Shown here in pieces: positions 2,365 to 32,565 of a DNA stretch of 32,897 nucleotides (positions within the stretch are counted from its first letter, which is position 1; each line of letters starts with the position of its first letter). Below the pieces are notes generated by a model. It made no database searches and was not told the origin of the DNA. It worked only from the letters and a program-made list of their open reading frames with translations. Origin of the DNA: a virus. The stretch covers positions 1 through 32,897 of the IMG/VR virus record IMGVR_UViG_3300044626_000445; one strand, given 5' to 3'. Made by a program: the position numbers and the translations under genes.

Positions 2365-2460
2365 CGTTCGAGCTAACTTGGACCCAACGGCGTGAACACA
2401 GTAACCGAAGCGCTCCACGGCAACCCGCCGTTGGGGCTCAAGTTGAGCGAGGGGTTGGGC
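2359..2460 (+). other. attC site 6 (identical to site 5)
   Basis: Inverse core GCCTAAC at 2359-2365 and core GTTGGGC at 2454-2460, with the same 102 bp as attC 5. A GTG at 2392 in the loop opens a frame that runs through the core into the cassette 6 gene without a stop. Confidence 0.92.
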
Positions 2461-3045
2461 CGCACCCGCGCGGTAGCTGCCCTGTTTTGCCGCGCGGACA
2501 GCCACTACAAGGCGCTGCCTGCGGTGGACGTGTGGGACGAGGCCCGAGACGCGCGCCAGTGGCCTGGTGGCGTGCCGCTGGTGGCGCACCCGCCGTGCCG
2601 ACTGTGGGCGAAGCTGCGGCAGTTTGCCAAAGCCCGCGACCCAGCGATGGAGCGCCAACTTGCGATTGACGCGGTGCGCCGCGTACAGCGGTTCGGTGGC
2701 GTGCTGGAGCACCCAGCAGAAAGCACTCTGTGGGCACACATGGGCCTGCCGACACCTGGCCGCGCGCCTGACCAACACGACGGCTGGACTGCCGAGATAC
2801 GACAGTGCGACTGGGGCCACAAGGCCGAGAAGCTGACCTGGCTGTATGTGGTGGGCTGCCACCCTGACAACCTGCCGCCCATGCCGCCGCGTGGCGAGCC
2901 GACCGGCGTGATTAAGCCCCAGCGCGGGATACCCCGCGATGGCCGAAAGATCGTGACGAAGGCCGAGAGAGAACACACGCCGCCCGAGCTAGCTTTATGG
3001 CTGGTGGAGTTGGCACGACGCTGCCAAGTGCGGCCCAACGCATAG
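2455..3045 (+). CDS. Cassette 6 HPPC-motif protein, phage-associated family
   Basis: This frame encodes 196 residues if it starts at the TTG at 2455, which is also the first base of the mobile cassette after the G/TT crossover. The frame is open upstream to a GTG at 2392 within attC 6 (217 residues), so the start is uncertain and no strong ribosome site decides it. The protein contains V-D-V-W-D-E-A-R-D-A-R, then V-A-H-P-P-C-R-L-W, F-G-G-V-L-E-H-P-A, W-G-H-K-A-E-K-x-T-W-L-Y-V-V-G-C and a C-terminal E-R-x-H-T-P-P-E-L-A. I recall similar proteins from phages and prophages, with no settled function; conserved His, Cys and Glu suggest an enzyme or metal site. The cassette ends are complementary over 12 bases. 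Confidence 0.75.
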   Translation: MGRTRAVAALFCRADSHYKALPAVDVWDEARDARQWPGGVPLVAHPPCRLWAKLRQFAKARDPAMERQLAIDAVRRVQRFGGVLEHPAESTLWAHMGLPTPGRAPDQHDGWTAEIRQCDWGHKAEKLTWLYVVGCHPDNLPPMPPRGEPTGVIKPQRGIPRDGRKIVTKAEREHTPPELALWLVELARRCQVRPNA

Positions 3046-3090
3046 GTTAAGCGGCCCGCCTCGCGGGTCCGCTTGAACCGGTAGTTCGGC
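3033..3090 (+). other. attC site 7
   Basis: Inverse core GCCCAAC at 3033-3039 and an off-consensus core GTTCGGC at 3084-3090, 58 bp. The arms GGTTAAGCGG with CCGCTTGAACC enclose a tight CCCGC/GCGGG hairpin. The inverse core lies inside the end of the cassette 6 coding frame (stop at 3045). Confidence 0.85.
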
Positions 3091-3126: not shown

Positions 3127-3333
3127 ATGCTAGGACTGAAGATCGTGCCGCACCCGCTGGCCCGCGATGTGCGCGTGGAGTTCAAGGTGACGCGCTGGGC
3201 TACGCGGGACAAGAAGCGCAAGAACTGGCGCGTGATGCGGATCGAGATAAACCGGCCAGGGTGCTACCAAGTGGGCGACACGCTTTACATCCACCCCGAC
3301 CTGATAGCCAAGCTGCCGCCGCGCGCAGTATGA
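3127..3333 (+). CDS. Cassette 7 small basic protein
   Basis: This gene encodes 68 residues. AAAGGAG at 3114-3120 sits six bases before the ATG at 3127, which decides the start over the GTG at 3106. The product is basic (W-A-T-R-D-K-K-R-K-N-W-R) with alternating hydrophobic strands and ends P-P-R-A-V, which suggests a small beta-rich nucleic-acid-binding or structural protein; that is inference only. It has no cysteines that could form a metal site and no membrane segment. Its cassette begins GTTCGGC and closes with GCCGAAC, exact complements of an unusual core. Confidence 0.75.
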   Translation: MLGLKIVPHPLARDVRVEFKVTRWATRDKKRKNWRVMRIEINRPGCYQVGDTLYIHPDLIAKLPPRAV

Positions 3334-3334
3334 A

Positions 3335-3392
3335 GCCGAACGCCCGAGTTCAGGCGGGGCCGTAGGACCTCGCCTGGAACGAAGTGTTAGGC
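3335..3392 (+). other. attC site 8
   Basis: Off-consensus inverse core GCCGAAC at 3335-3341 and normal core GTTAGGC at 3386-3392, 58 bp. The arms are TTCAGGCG and CGCCTGGAA with a short loop. The inverse core complements the odd core that opens the same cassette, which supports a single mobile unit. Confidence 0.85.
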
Positions 3393-3422: not shown

Positions 3423-3725
3423 ATGCAAGCCTTGAGCGAACTGATTACCGCCGCCATGCAACTGGCTGGCACTGACGACCAAGTAAGCCACGGCGCGCGA
3501 CTGTGGAAAACCGAAGGCGGCCGGCGCTGCCCGCTGGACTGGGACGGCTGCTCGCAAGCGGTGTACGTGGACCTGAAGACCGGCGAGTACGACTACGGCA
3601 AGCCTGGCGGGCCAGGGCATGCTGACTGCGTGCGCTACTGCCCGCACGGCATGGAGCCGCCCCCACCAGAAGAAGAGGAAGAGCGCGTGTATGACGACGG
3701 CGACCCGGTTGAAGCTGTGGCCTAA
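3423..3725 (+). CDS. Cassette 8 cysteine-containing hypothetical protein
   Basis: This gene encodes 100 residues from the ATG at 3423, with AAAGGA about nine bases upstream. Four cysteines occur in two groups (R-R-C-P-L-D-W-D-G-C and A-D-C-V-R-Y-C-P-H-G), so a zinc site is possible. The C-terminal 25 residues are very acidic with a P-P-P-P-E-E-E-E-E-E run. It has no membrane segment. The TAA stop at 3723-3725 lies in the inverse core of attC 9, and the cassette ends GTTAGGCCAC and GTGGCCTAAC are exact complements. Function unknown. Confidence 0.8.
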   Translation: MQALSELITAAMQLAGTDDQVSHGARLWKTEGGRRCPLDWDGCSQAVYVDLKTGEYDYGKPGGPGHADCVRYCPHGMEPPPPEEEEERVYDDGDPVEAVA

Positions 3726-3824
3726 CGTTCGAGCTGAGCCGGCCACAACGGCCCGCGATGAGGTGTCAAGGAATCCTTGACTGCTGGCCGGCCGTTGGGG
3801 CTCGGTTCGAGCGAGTAGTTAGGG
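3720..3824 (+). other. attC site 9, last in array
   Basis: Inverse core GCCTAAC at 3720-3726 and core GTTAGGG at 3818-3824, whose last base departs from GTTRRRY. The arms are GAGCTGAGCCGGCC and GGCCGGC...GGGGCTCGGTTCGAGC, and CAACGGCC pairs with GGCCGTTG. The loop holds the palindrome GTCAAGGAATCCTTGAC at 3765-3781. No further attC follows before phage-type genes. Confidence 0.85.
3765..3781. repeat. 17-base palindrome, copy 1 (in attC 9 loop)
   Basis: GTCAAGGAATCCTTGAC is a perfect inverted repeat of 8-base half-sites around a central A. It lies in the loop of the last attC. The same sequence, inverted, recurs at 4930-4946. It could be a repressor operator or a recombination site; neither is shown. 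Confidence 0.7.
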
Positions 3825-3870
3825 CGCTGGCCCCGTAGCGCGACGATGTTTGCGTGTTACAAAATAGTCC

Positions 3871-3898
3871 TTGACTCCGGCGGTTGCCGTGCTACAGT
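3871..3898 (+). promoter_or_regulatory. Sigma70-type promoter for the rightward small genes
   Basis: TTGACT at 3871-3876 and TACAGT at 3893-3898 are separated by 16 bases, a good match to a housekeeping promoter. The first gene starts 36 bases after the -10 box. The half-site TCCTTGAC at 3868-3875 overlaps the -35 box and equals one arm of the palindromes at 3765 and 4930, so a protein binding those could control this promoter. Confidence 0.65.
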
Positions 3899-3934
3899 AA
3901 CACCCATCGCAACACGCAACCCGGAGCAAGCAAC

Positions 3935-4078
3935 ATGCAAACCACCTACTGGAACGGCGATCTGGCCCGCTACACCGGCAAGACCATGATCCTGCACGGC
4001 GGCTTGTTCTACGAGATCGAACTGCTTGAAGGCCACCTCAAGGGCCAAACCAAGGTGACGCAACGCGCCCCCAAGTAA
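3935..4078 (+). CDS. Small hypothetical protein, first gene of rightward block
   Basis: This gene encodes 47 residues from the ATG at 3935. GGAG at 3923-3926 is eight bases upstream, which fixes the start against longer readings. The sequence starts M-Q-T-T-Y-W-N-G-D and contains T-G-K-T-M-I-L-H-G-G-L-F-Y-E-I-E-L-L-E-G-H, alternating in the manner of a small beta-rich domain. It has no membrane segment or cysteines. It follows the promoter at 3871-3898 directly and precedes the next gene by 11 bases with a shared transcript implied. I do not recognise a function; it may be an early or lysogeny-expressed phage gene. Confidence 0.7.
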   Translation: MQTTYWNGDLARYTGKTMILHGGLFYEIELLEGHLKGQTKVTQRAPK

Positions 4079-4089
4079 GGAGAATCAGC

Positions 4090-4338
4090 ATGACCACCAC
4101 GTACACCCAAGCTGTTACTTTCGCCTCTCTTGTTGATGAGGCTGTGGAGCGCGCCAAAGAGCAAGCCGCGCCGTTCACCCCTTCGCGCGCACAGTACGAA
4201 GACGCGCTGAATTGGGCGCTGGTGATCGTGAGCGACTTTGCCGACCCGTGGGCCTTTATCAAGGCAACGCATCGCGGCGCCGGCACGATGGACGCCGTAG
4301 CTTCTGAACTGTTCAAGCGTCTCCGGGCTTCGGCATGA
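4090..4338 (+). CDS. Small hypothetical helical protein
   Basis: This gene encodes 82 residues; AAGGAGA lies just before the ATG at 4090. The protein is predicted mainly helical, with V-D-E-A-V-E-R-A-K-E-Q-A-A and a Trp-containing middle section (A-L-N-W-A-L-V-I-V-S-D-F-A-D-P-W-A-F). It has no membrane-length hydrophobic run and no metal site. The stop overlaps the ATG of the next gene (ATGA at 4335-4338), so the two are translationally coupled. Function unknown. Confidence 0.72.
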   Translation: MTTTYTQAVTFASLVDEAVERAKEQAAPFTPSRAQYEDALNWALVIVSDFADPWAFIKATHRGAGTMDAVASELFKRLRASA

Positions 4339-4553
4339 ACGTCGTTTGCAGCAACTGCAACAGGGTGGGCCATGCGTGGCCCCTTTGCCCAGACTTAACG
4401 GGAGACCCGCATCAAGAAGCTTGGTATGTCGCGGCGCGCGCGGCAGAAGTCGAGCGCGAGCGCATCAGGGCAAGGCTGATGGAAATGCACGAAAGAGACA
4501 AGGAACGGCACAACTACTGGCACGTTGCCGTTGTGGAGTTGTTCGGATCATGA
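4335..4553 (+). CDS. Small protein with CCHC zinc-knuckle motif
   Basis: This gene encodes 72 residues. Residues 5-18 read C-S-N-C-N-R-V-G-H-A-W-P-L-C, an exact C-x2-C-x4-H-x4-C zinc knuckle, the metal-binding motif best known from retroviral nucleocapsid and other single-strand nucleic-acid binding proteins. The rest is a charged helix (E-V-E-R-E-R-I-R-A-R-L-M-E-M-H-E-R-D-K). It overlaps the upstream gene (ATGA) and its stop overlaps the downstream start (ATGA at 4550-4553). A role in binding RNA or single-stranded DNA is inferred from the motif only. Confidence 0.72.
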   Translation: MNVVCSNCNRVGHAWPLCPDLTGDPHQEAWYVAARAAEVERERIRARLMEMHERDKERHNYWHVAVVELFGS

Positions 4554-4783
4554 CCGCCCCCAACAAAGGCGGACGCCCACCCGCCCCGCCAGCCCTGCGC
4601 CGCGTGAACGTCCCCGTGCGCCTGCCCGCGTGGCTTGTCGAGTGGATGGCAGCGCAGCCCGACACGCCCGCAGCGCTGATCGAGGCCGCGCTGCTGAAGG
4701 CGCACAAGCTGAAACCGCCGCATCTGGTGGCCGACAAGCTGGCGAGGAAGCGGGCAAAGGCACTTGGCACGGAATCTGCTTAG
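4550..4783 (+). CDS. Small protein, possible ribbon-helix-helix regulator
   Basis: This gene encodes 77 residues from an ATG at 4550 that overlaps the previous stop. The frame is open further upstream but the coupled start is preferred. After a flexible N-K-G-G-R-P-P-A-P-P start comes R-R-V-N-V-P-V-R-L-P-A-W-L-V-E-W-M, then A-A-L-I-E-A-A-L-L-K-A-H, a strand-helix-helix layout like CopG/Arc-type proteins. The C-terminus is Lys/Arg-rich. It is the last gene before the terminator at 4894. DNA binding is plausible, and the palindromes nearby would be a candidate target, but that is inference. Confidence 0.65.
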   Translation: MTAPNKGGRPPAPPALRRVNVPVRLPAWLVEWMAAQPDTPAALIEAALLKAHKLKPPHLVADKLARKRAKALGTESA

Positions 4784-4918: not shown

Positions 4919-4929
4919 CGTGGGCAACC

Positions 4930-4946
4930 GTCAAGGATTCCTTGAC
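4930..4946. repeat. 17-base palindrome, copy 2
   Basis: GTCAAGGATTCCTTGAC is the reverse complement of the copy at 3765-3781, identical over all 17 bases. The two copies bracket the promoter, four genes and terminator of the rightward block. Confidence 0.7.
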
Positions 4947-4987
4947 AGCTCATTCCCTCCTATTCGGCCAGCTATTCACCTTTTCAT

Positions 4988-24871: not shown

Positions 24872-26347
24872 TTACTCGTAGTAACCGCGGAAAGTGACCA
24901 CCGTCCAGATCACTTGAGAAGCGGTCGCCGTGCCTTGAATAAACTTCGCCACCGCGCCGATCAGTTCACCAGGCGCGACGACAATGGGCGCGCTGCTGAA
25001 ATCCTGGTCAAGTTCCTGCGCCTGCGATCCGATGGCAGCGCCGACTAGCCACGTCTGCAGGCCGACACCGACACGCCGCGCCGCTTTGACCGTGGCCGTC
25101 GAGAACGACGCGCCTTCACCCGTGGCAAGGCTGTTCAACTGCGTGCCGCCGAAGGCAATCGACCACTGCACGGTCGTGGGCGTCGTTGCCACCGCCGCGC
25201 CGATGTTGACGCTGGAGATGTGGATACCCGTGATGACGAGGTTCCGGCCGGTAATGTTGATCGTGGCCGCAGGGTTCGTGAACGCCGTCACCCAGCCGTC
25301 GAGGCCCGGGGCTGCTGCGGTGATGCCCGCTTGACCACCTAGGCCCGTGGCGAGGGCCGTGGTCTGCGACAGCGCCGCGCCCGTTACCGTCGTGGCGCCC
25401 GTGGCGTTCGGCAGCAGGGCAGACGTGCCCATCGTGCCGCCGTTCTGGCCTTGGTAGGCAGACGCGCCCATCGTGCATTGCTGCACGCCCCAATCGCGGT
25501 TGCTCGCCACGTCCATGAGGCCCACGCCGACGCGGGACACGCGCATCGTGTTCGTGTTCGACACGGCGCCCGTGTTGAACTTCATGATGAACATCGGGAG
25601 CGAGCCCTGCAGGAACGGCAAGCCGTTCGCCGTGGGGATGTCCATGTGCCCGAGCAGCTTGTCGTCAAGCCAGAACTCAACCTCGCGCTCGCCCACAACC
25701 ATCAAGAACTTGAACATGCTGCCGACTGTCAGCGCCGACAGCGGGAGCGCGGCATCAAGTGCGGATTCGACCGCAGTGCCGTTGAACGAGATGACGCCAA
25801 ACACGCCGGCCGACGTGATCTTGAGCCAGCAGCCATCAGTCGGCACCGTGGTAGCCGCGCTCGGCAGGCCCAGGCCCAACAGGAATACCTCGCCCGAAAC
25901 CATCGCGGCGTTGAACTGGCCGAAATAGGCTTCAACCGCCAGCGGGGCCGTGTTGACCAGCGGGAAATACTGTTTCGTGTGCATGAACGCGCCATGCGCG
26001 CTCGTTGTGCCTTGCACCGCCGAAAAGTTCACCGTACCGGCGCCGGGCTGCGCCGCCGTCAATGTGCTGAAGACGTAACGCCAGACGCCCGTGTTCTGCG
26101 TCGTGGCGTTGAACACGTCGTGGAACAGCACCGAATCGACGCCAACGCGCAGCCGGTAGTCGGGCGAAATCTCGCCTGACTTGCGGAATTTGGCGTTTGT
26201 CAGTTCGCCGTCGTCGTTCTCGACGTACAGGACAGCGATGCCAGCCTTTGCTGGGTCGTCGTTCGTGCGAACCAGCAGTTGCCGGTCGGCATCGACGTTG
26301 GCACCCGTGCCAGACAGTGCGCCGACGATGTTGGTATCGAGTGCCAT
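24872..26347 (-). CDS. Putative virion structural protein
   Basis: This gene encodes 491 residues; its ATG at 26347 shares a base with the homing endonuclease stop (TGATG). It is a large, evenly beta-rich, Ala/Gly/Thr/Val-rich protein. Its middle section resembles a concanavalin-type sandwich (L-P-L-S-A-L-T-V-G-S-M-F-K-F-L-M-V-V-G-E, then R-E-V-E-F-W-L-D-D-K-L-L-G-H-M-D). It has no membrane segment. Located between portal and scaffold, it may be a head fibre or decoration protein; I know no named homologue with certainty. Confidence 0.68.
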   Translation of the reverse strand: MALDTNIVGALSGTGANVDADRQLLVRTNDDPAKAGIAVLYVENDDGELTNAKFRKSGEISPDYRLRVGVDSVLFHDVFNATTQNTGVWRYVFSTLTAAQPGAGTVNFSAVQGTTSAHGAFMHTKQYFPLVNTAPLAVEAYFGQFNAAMVSGEVFLLGLGLPSAATTVPTDGCWLKITSAGVFGVISFNGTAVESALDAALPLSALTVGSMFKFLMVVGEREVEFWLDDKLLGHMDIPTANGLPFLQGSLPMFIMKFNTGAVSNTNTMRVSRVGVGLMDVASNRDWGVQQCTMGASAYQGQNGGTMGTSALLPNATGATTVTGAALSQTTALATGLGGQAGITAAAPGLDGWVTAFTNPAATINITGRNLVITGIHISSVNIGAAVATTPTTVQWSIAFGGTQLNSLATGEGASFSTATVKAARRVGVGLQTWLVGAAIGSQAQELDQDFSSAPIVVAPGELIGAVAKFIQGTATASQVIWTVVTFRGYYE

Positions 26348-26832
26348 CAGTTACCTGCGATTTCGTTAAGGTGCGCAAACTCGCCCCAGATTTCAAAGGC
26401 CGCCTTGTTGTACGCGGCAGCGGCCTCCGCTTCAGTCTTGAAACTGCCGAGGTAGATGCTTTTCTTGTCTTTCATGACCCACGCGCGATAGCGCGGGCTT
26501 TTGGTGTTCGCAGCGCAAACACCTTTGTACTTTGACGATCCGCCCATCGCGGGCTTGTTTGCGCAGTTCTGGCTTCTCGTTGCAAGCCGCAGATTGCAGC
26601 GCCGGTTGTCTAGGCCATCTCCGTTGATGTGGTCAACATCCTTGCGCCTATCGGCATCAAGAATCATCCGGTGCATGTAAACGGCGCGGCCAGCGACGGA
26701 AGTGGCCGCGTAATATTTTTTTGCCTTTGCGGAGGTCGAATAGTCGTTGACGCTCCACTTGAACTGGCTCATCAACCCGGCCAACTCATCATCAAACTTG
26801 ACCACGAACTCACCGACAGAAATTTGAGCCAT
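26347..26832 (-). CDS. HNH homing endonuclease with AP2 DNA-binding domain
   Basis: This gene encodes 161 residues from the ATG at 26832. The HNH part has M-H-R-M-I-L near residue 53 and D-V-D-H-I-N-G-D-G-L-D-N-R-R-C-N-L-R at 65-82, with all key residues present. An AP2-like domain at about 101-156 follows (K-Y-K-G-V through Y-L-G-S-F-K-T-E-A-E-A-A-A-A-Y). This is the standard free-standing phage homing endonuclease, a mobile gene that cuts DNA lacking it. It lies between two structural genes, 31 bases after the 94-residue gene, and shares a base with the next start. Confidence 0.9.
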   Translation of the reverse strand: MAQISVGEFVVKFDDELAGLMSQFKWSVNDYSTSAKAKKYYAATSVAGRAVYMHRMILDADRRKDVDHINGDGLDNRRCNLRLATRSQNCANKPAMGGSSKYKGVCAANTKSPRYRAWVMKDKKSIYLGSFKTEAEAAAAYNKAAFEIWGEFAHLNEIAGN

Positions 26833-31914: not shown

Positions 31915-32111
31915 ACCGCCTCCGCCATAAGCAGCCGCTCAAGCGCCAGCGCCAGCGCGACCCGGCTGTCTGCCTGGTGCCGCTGCTGCAGCGTCCTGAT
32001 GTCGTGCTCTACCGTGTGGCGATGCACGCCGAGGGCTGCGGCTATCTGCGCGTTGTTCTTGCCGTCGAGTAGCAGGGCTGCGACACCACTGCGGCGGGCT
32101 TCGGTGTTCAT
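31911..32111 (-). CDS. Small helix-turn-helix protein
   Basis: This gene encodes 66 residues; its ATG at 32111 overlaps the upstream stop (ATGA). Residues 10-40 (V-A-A-L-L-L-D-G-K-N-N-A-Q-I-A-A-A-L-G-V-H-R-H-T-V-E-H-D-I-R-T-L) are a clear helix-turn-helix of the FixJ/Fis type. A second helical part follows. It may regulate phage transcription or help another DNA-binding protein; the target is unknown. Confidence 0.72.
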   Translation of the reverse strand: MNTEARRSGVAALLLDGKNNAQIAAALGVHRHTVEHDIRTLQQRHQADSRVALALALERLLMAEAV

Positions 32112-32401
32112 GCTGTTTCAATGGGCCTGCGACGGCGCCACTTAGCCCAATCCGCGCGGCTCATGCCCACAAGGTTTTCGCGCCGGTTGTCGGTAGCGTC
32201 GTTATTTCGAAAACCGACCACCTCGTGACCCGGCAGGATCATTCGATGCAGCGGGTCATGGGCTCCCGTGTGGCCGGTGACAATTTGGCTTACAACACCG
32301 TCATTGCCTTTGTGCCCGCGCCAAACTTTCGTGCGCAACAAGTAGGCATCGCATTCGTCAACAGTGACGATAGTTCCGCACTTCAATCGAAAACGCTTCA
32401 T
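32108..32401 (-). CDS. HNH-like protein with missing catalytic histidine
   Basis: This gene encodes 97 residues from the ATG at 32401, which overlaps the upstream stop; the frame is open further upstream but the coupled start is preferred. L-H-R-M-I-L near residue 51 and N-N-D-A-T-D-N-R-R-E-N-L near 66-77 match the HNH_3 pattern seen in the intact endonuclease at 26347-26832. Where that protein has D-H this one has G-F (residues 63-64), so the key histidine is absent. It may be a domesticated DNA-binding form. The C-terminus is basic. Confidence 0.68.
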   Translation of the reverse strand: MKRFRLKCGTIVTVDECDAYLLRTKVWRGHKGNDGVVSQIVTGHTGAHDPLHRMILPGHEVVGFRNNDATDNRRENLVGMSRADWAKWRRRRPIETA

Positions 32402-32565
32402 CCCTGCACCCTCGCCACAAACCCCGGGCACCGCTGCAGCAGATTCGCCAGCGCAGGCCCGACGACTGGCGCACCGATGCGGGCTTGCCGGAAGTTGCCG
32501 CACTGCCACGGGCGGAAGTGGCGGCAATCCACGCAGCGCACGCGGGGGTCTAAGGGGTCGGTCAT
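32398..32565 (-). CDS. Small CxxC protein, possible zinc binder
   Basis: This gene encodes 55 residues from the ATG at 32565; both ends overlap neighbours as ATGA. R-C-V-D-C-R-H-F-R-P-W-Q-C-G-N-F near residue 10 and a late L-L-Q-R-C-P-G-F give C-x2-C-x-H plus further cysteines, a likely small zinc site. Very similar short proteins occur in replication-side operons of phages from related hosts, by my recollection. Function unknown. Confidence 0.68.
   Translation of the reverse strand: MTDPLDPRVRCVDCRHFRPWQCGNFRQARIGAPVVGPALANLLQRCPGFVARVQG

Follow-up and report, generated by a model that had tools for sequence, protein, structure and literature searches.

Integrons as well as CALINs have already been described in phages, and phage attC sites are able to recombine with attI1 in E. 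coli (Qi et al. 2023, PMC9892861). In its main text, that study does not state how genes are oriented relative to attC; nor does it describe, as far as it goes, a fixed site where the early operon ends, the sharing of cassettes between phages or translation starts within attC. The stretch of viral DNA analysed here (hereafter, the window) comprises an entire IMG/VR record of 32,897 bp, without a terminal repeat, and joins an array of attC sites to P22-type phage genes. Its cassette genes run against the attC sites and one of them fits a translation start within attC, two points that were absent from the initial annotation of this DNA.

Results

The attC array and its phage neighbours

The first 3,824 nt of the window contain nine attC-like sites and eight gene units, with two of the sites (3033-3090 and 3335-3392) being degenerate, and they are followed by phage genes. 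The initial annotation had described this succession of cassette attC sites up to 3824 and P22-type DNA, with no integrase between them, and both observations held: profile searches detected neither a tyrosine integrase (PF00589) nor an integron integrase (TIGR02249) anywhere in the window. It had also considered that the attC sites could be chance hairpins, which is at odds with the seven sites retrieved by a strict scanner, as compared with 0.8 expected per dinucleotide-shuffled window on both strands. In single-strand folding, all the sites folded clearly outperformed their shuffled versions, except for 3335-3392, with site 529-654 reaching z = -8.1. The clustered attC sites, with R''-L''-L'-R' architecture, and the lack of TIGR02249 identify the array as a CALIN, within a record that is itself a fragment; no intI with an adjacent attI, as in an integron, was found in the window or in the related phage G001. 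The features of this part of the window are as follows.

69-171, - strand: attC 1 (R' box 69-75, R'' box 165-171; loop with AGGAG and ATG(118) for the + strand gene)
118-534, + strand: cassette gene, 138 aa, with its start within attC 1 and its end at the TAA of the next R' box; C-terminal part matching phrog_15190
75-534, no strand: mobile unit of attC 1 and its gene, 99.6% in phage contig G003 (L009 11111-11582)
529-654, - strand: attC 2 (126 nt; loop with AAGGAG and ATG(594))
681-1064, + strand: cassette gene, 127 aa, function unknown
1067-1133, - strand: attC 3
1073-1493, no strand: mobile unit of attC 3 and gene 1168-1485, 100% in circular phage G001 (L092 2303-2730)
1488-1559, - strand: attC 4
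1589-1921, + strand: cassette gene, 110 aa, stop codon within the R' box
1916-2017, - strand: attC 5 (99% identity to attC 6 over 111 nt)
2050-2364, + strand: cassette gene, 104 aa, paralogue of 118-534 (84% over 210 nt)
2359-2460, - strand: attC 6
2392-3045, + strand: cassette gene of at most 217 aa, uncertain start inside attC 6; similar proteins, identified by eye, in the L009 array
3033-3090, - strand: attC 7, degenerate cores
3127-3333, + strand: cassette gene, 68 aa
3335-3392, - strand: attC 8, degenerate, fold not above shuffles (z -1.3)
3423-3725, + strand: cassette gene, 100 aa, stop codon within the R' box
3720-3824, - strand: attC 9, outermost (loop palindrome GTCAAGGAATCCTTGAC; outer core GTTAGGG), oriented from its overall arm sequence because the automatic score was ambiguous
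3871-3898, + strand: sigma70-like promoter, TTGACT-16-TACAGT, preceding a repeated phage leader
3935-4783, + strand: four small ORFs (3935-4078, 4090-4338, 4335-4553 and 4550-4783)
4922-4953, no strand: palindrome GTCAAGGATTCCTTGAC at the late-operon end, in the same place in G001, G002 and G003
4988-32897, - strand: P22-type late operon and part of the replication region

The late operon runs on the - strand from around 31 kb down to 4988, with replication-type genes further right, where the record ends with a partial O-like replication gene and a RusA-like resolvase gene, also on the - strand. It codes for TerL, portal (phrog_156), coat (phrog_334), head closure (Hc3/gp10, phrog_578) and DNA ejection (phrog_598) proteins, holin and Rz, and then a phosphoesterase; the P22-like portal, coat, head closure and DNA ejection proteins assign the window to a P22-type podovirus. 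Two small HNH/AP2 homing-endonuclease-like proteins are encoded on the - strand, the first (26347-26832) within the late operon, ahead of the portal-coat region, and the second (32108-32527) near the replication genes. Neither Rfam families nor tRNAs were found in the window, and nucleotide searches of phage and plasmid collections returned no close copy of the array or the junction. Likewise, a phosphoesterase alignment against sequenced bacterial genomes produced a single, distant hit in Rhizobium (31%) and hence no prophage of the window's clade or sequenced host.

Between array and late operon, the second small ORF (4090-4338) has a homologue in phage G012 (88% aa identity), and the repeated leader (3893-3937) is 93% identical to its G012 counterpart. 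This leader, ATCGCAACACGCAACCCGGAGCAAGC, with a -10-like TACAGT, occurs at 3893-3937 in the window, 6861-6904 in L087 and around 4385-4415 in L092, each time followed by different genes, and looks like a mobile early promoter with a ribosome-binding site. A 17-base palindrome, GTCAAGGA(A/T)TCCTTGAC, with the shared flank ATGAG, is found in the loop of attC 9 (3758-3789) and, inverted, at the late-operon end (4922-4953); in G001, the late-operon-end copy lies near the integrase. One possibility is that an operator or attP site has been copied into the attC loop.

Gene orientation relative to attC

Ordinary cassettes consist of a gene and, downstream of it in the same orientation, its attC. Accordingly, the gene-adjacent attC arm of aadA1 from R100, our positive control, bears the unpaired bases (TT-C-AAGCCG-A-CGCC). 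In the window's sites, the arm found where the gene ends is CCTAACGTTCGAGCTAAGCTG, the reverse complement of the ordinary distal arm, and the unpaired bases are in the opposite arm, indicating that the attC sites are on the - strand and the genes on the + strand. The + strand fold was the more stable one in every strict site compared (-43.0 versus -37.7 kcal/mol for 529-654). The bottom strand of attC is the recombinogenic one, and this difference is as expected if the + strand is that bottom strand.

We examined the generality of this layout in 108 viral stretches fetched with a single attC motif, CCTAACGTTCGAGCTAA, around 60 of which hold arrays, calling the gene strand with a codon-usage scorer. 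The gene opposed the attC in 133 of the 134 intervals scored, from 61 viral contigs that include some near-duplicates; all five intervals scored in the window were inverted, so that its units depart from the standard cassette. Conversely, in the chromosomal integrons of 72 out of 398 Pseudomonadota genomes, those with intI, the gene runs with the attC in the 12 intervals scored automatically, nine of them by the same codon model (Fisher P = 1e-16 for viral versus bacterial orientation). These calls leave out TJE1 and P12002L, whose attC types are missed by the scanner. MW202573, a phage with a published CALIN and another attC sequence, was inverted too.

Two further observations are independent of the scorer. 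Of about 134 phage cassette genes, 57 have the TAA of the GCCTAAC box as their stop codon, and the matches of cassette genes to known families, including N6/N4 methylases, MT-A70, DUF5131, NinX and Lar, fall on the inverted strand. With DNA this GC-rich, a strand test based on open frames that end in R boxes had no discriminating power.

None of the 398 genomes spanning the phylum contained the attC subtype of the phages, as opposed to 5 out of 399 genomes of one order. In these five genomes the genes, which by eye include hydrolase, DUF998-like, GNAT and cupin genes, among others, run with the attC, indicating that inversion goes with the phage and not with the attC subtype. The attC end TTAGCTCGAACGTTAGG characterizes the 108 viral stretches and shows the same 0/398 and 5/399 distribution in bacteria, and the subtype containing it may be mainly a phage sequence.

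Position of the array in related phages

The window begins within the array, and its left flank can thus be judged only from relatives, which we found through the window's phosphoesterase. The phosphoesterase of contig G003 (L009) is 93% identical, and its nucleotide match to the window stops at 4930, at palindrome GTCAAGGATTCCTTGAC. Past the palindrome, G003 contains a cassette array followed by NinB (PF05772, 98 bits), an HNH-type protein (by eye), a SpoVG-like protein and ERF (PF04404), with these early genes, from NinB to ERF, co-directional with the cassettes. The ends of contig G001 overlap by 43 nt, indicating a circular genome of around 42.4 kb, in which the late-operon end is followed by the palindrome, a tyrosine integrase gene, an excisionase-like gene, small genes, the array, NinB and the remaining early region. 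In the window, the interval that holds the integrase in G001 contains instead the four small genes with their own promoter-like site. Two other array-bearing contigs, G018 and G037, are also circular, with end overlaps of 127 and 123 nt.

A search for NinB identified six contigs in which ninB is followed by an array; in several, the first attC lies around 45 nt past the ninB stop codon. Among 54 array-bearing records checked, 19 contained NinB, which according to coordinates was upstream of, and co-directional with, the array in 11. The ORFs immediately upstream of some 50 viral arrays showed PHROG matches to NinB, RusA, RecT, RecE, Erf, SSB, HNH and methyltransferases. In relatives, therefore, phage genes flank the array on both sides, with NinB/ERF on one and the late-operon end or an integrase on the other; judging from gene order, the array lies inside the phage genome, where the early recombination operon (ERF-SSB-HNH-NinB) reaches its 3' end, ahead of int or the late-operon end. 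From this location, the junction at 3825 is the downstream border of a phage-borne array, whose upstream border lies beyond the left end of the record. The altered outermost core, GTTAGGG, had been taken by the initial annotation as a possible trace of insertion; it does occur in the window, yet related phage arrays commonly have this variant, which is thus not a mark of insertion.

Predicted translation starts within attC

We scored 151 distinct phage attC sites of at least 70 nt for a Shine-Dalgarno sequence and an ATG or GTG within the site. On the gene strand, 91 sites contained both signals, and the frame remained open for at least 30 codons past the site in 74; on the other strand of the same 151 sites there were 10 and nine, respectively. 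Only two of 51 bacterial attC sites contained these signals on the gene strand, neither of them staying open. The proteins predicted from such starts carry an attC-coded N-terminal stretch ending in ..VERGVR or ..LSEGLG, which correspond to the two open frames of the L'-R'' segment. Gene 118-534 of the window fits this pattern, with AGGAG, six bases and ATG118 inside attC 1. The AAGGAG and ATG594 of attC 2 are soon followed by a stop codon, and the next gene has its own start. From these sequence patterns, we infer that attC hairpin loops start the translation of the following gene.

Probable cassette exchange and integron integrases

Two units of the window occur in other phages amid unrelated neighbours: 66-537 is 99.6% identical to a segment of G003 and 1067-1494 is 100% identical to a segment of the circular G001. 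As judged by direct inspection, the ends of both shared units coincide with the R' core expected for inverted units, GCCTAA/C, the integrase crossover box (G/TTRRRY of R'), although one of the four ends, in G003, has the variant core GTTATGC; the chance of finding a core that near a random position is 3% per end. An all-against-all test was limited by missed attC sites. A third shared match, in L239 (99.2%), begins inside attC 3 and not at the core. Additionally, the 126-nt attC 2 (529-654) is 98-99% identical in L191 (3486-3614) and L193 (343-468), with both flanking genes being different, indicating that sites and genes re-associate, by either homologous recombination or cassette formation. 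Exchange at R' alone does not explain, from the sequences compared, the reuse of attC 2 and the segment ends inside attC.

No integron integrase reached the cut-off in a first set of 27 records. In a further set, two of 45 array contigs contained full-length integron integrase genes, at 1489-2529 of L185 (G051; 425 bits) and 7550-8659 of L345 (G045; 428 bits). In G045, a C5-methylase gene is followed by the array, the integron integrase gene, a phage (tyrosine) integrase gene and, on the other strand, lysis-type genes; in G051, ParB-like and HNH-type genes are followed by the array, the integron integrase gene and a large serine recombinase gene. Both are apparently complete phage integrons, with inverted arrays. 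Because their integrase genes are promoter-distal, a cassette inserted at the corresponding attI would be the last in the operon, opposite to the situation in bacteria. The methyltransferase cassette of G051 contains several tandem repeats of about 54 bp within the gene (L185 3500-3780).

Discussion

It is likely that the window is part of a P22-type phage genome with a mirror-image cassette array at the downstream end of the early operon, whose genes are started from attC and whose units are exchanged by an integron integrase. Along the direction of transcription, a unit would consist of attC and then gene, instead of the gene and then attC of ordinary cassettes. The early operon would transcribe the array from its NinB end, and each attC would form in the transcript a hairpin whose loop, in many cases, is predicted to expose a Shine-Dalgarno sequence and a start codon; translation of the following gene would begin there, adding a short N-terminus (..VERGVR- or ..LSEGLG-). 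An integron integrase would perform the exchange of units, probably acting in trans in the window's phage, from the host or from another phage; some relatives carry such a gene at the array's distal end. The wider proposal that phages own a separate integron system, with mirror-image cassettes whose attC provides ribosome-binding site, start and peptide, arrays read from the early operon towards the integrase and a pool kept apart from that of bacteria, seems to us evenly poised.

The initial annotation had contemplated two origins for the junction, a phage genome carrying a cassette array, which the flanks of the relatives and three circular genomes endorse, and a prophage inserted in an integron, either at its last attC or next to it. 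In the latter case, with the integron belonging to a host chromosome, the array would be host DNA and the junction an attachment site, in agreement with the lack of an integrase between array and phage genes, the recurrence in attC 9 of the palindrome near the late-operon end and the description in PMC9892861 of Vibrio prophages flanked by attC repeats. This is nevertheless very improbable, because, in relatives, phage early genes lie beyond the array, G001, G018 and G037 are circular with the array inside and the gene-versus-attC orientation is opposite to that of bacterial arrays. A prophage in a host integron, examined through the relatives, was rejected: beyond the array, these have phage early genes, not host DNA. 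The suggestion that a phage uses the integron as its attachment region is not supported either; the array is internal in G001, with integrase and palindrome outside it and small genes between. Misassembly of an integron contig and a phage contig at around 3825 is scarcely credible, with the same kind of join appearing in independent contigs from other samples and within circular genomes.

Two other explanations accept a phage-borne array and question either the recombinase or the cause of the inversion. Units could be shuffled by phage homologous recombination (Erf/RecT with NinB) between attC repeats, leaving the attC fold as a relic or for translation only. Arrays do adjoin genes for NinB, Erf, RecT and RusA, attC 5 and 6 share 99% identity, a shared segment has one end within an attC and the genes flanking the 126-nt attC 2 vary on both sides; we still regard this as rather unlikely, because two shared units have both ends at the R' core, the attC sites retain their bottom-strand fold and extra-helical bases and two related phages encode a full-length integron integrase beside the array. 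Alternatively, a single ancestral inverted array might have spread by descent and exchange, the starts in attC loops arising later and not being the cause of inversion. We consider such a founder effect possible but doubtful: all the arrays were fetched with one attC motif and several phages have cassettes in common, whereas a variety of early regions (NinB, RecT, RecE, Erf, methyltransferase or ParB-type) adjoin the arrays and MW202573 is inverted despite its different attC sequence.

If the preferred reading of an inverted, integrase-exchanged phage array is true, phages gain a modular site for swapping early accessory genes, which would explain the turnover of small genes at the ends of early operons, and attC would be at once a recombination site and a translation start. 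If the wider proposal of a separate phage system holds, phages would also trade accessory and anti-restriction genes through their own cassette pool, and bacterial cassettes captured by a phage array would be antisense, which would keep both pools apart. The predicted barrier matters for claims that phages spread bacterial cassettes. Since the same attC was found with different genes, these arrays also bear on the open question of the origin of cassettes and how they form.

What appears to be new is the inverted, attC-started cassette format, given that we found no report of inverted phage cassette genes or attC-borne translation starts in the open-access papers searched, mostly at the level of titles and abstracts; phage CALINs themselves are known. 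Those of Qi et al. 2023 (PMC9892861) similarly comprise attC arrays without intI in phage genomes and include DNA methyltransferase cassettes, and one of their phages, MW202573, has P22-type coat and portal genes and its attC sites in the early-gene stretch ahead of a convergent late operon. Vibrio anguillarum phage p16, discussed in the same article among complete integrons in phages, is also a phage genome with integron parts, comparable to G045 and G051; unlike the arrays studied here, which are inverted and contain phage-type genes (NinX, Lar, methyltransferases), that of p16 is a piece of its host's chromosomal integron (PMC9892861).

Sedentary chromosomal integrons of Pseudomonadota share with the phage arrays the attC architecture, the R'/R'' cores and the extra-helical bases, with the same subtype in the five genomes of one order already mentioned, but their genes run with the attC, their loops lack a start signal and their arrays lie beside intI.

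The nin region of lambda and P22, together with accessory 'moron' genes, offers a parallel, with early operons that end in variable small genes beside recombination genes such as ninB. The phage arrays described here differ from it in that their variable genes are units with attC sites.
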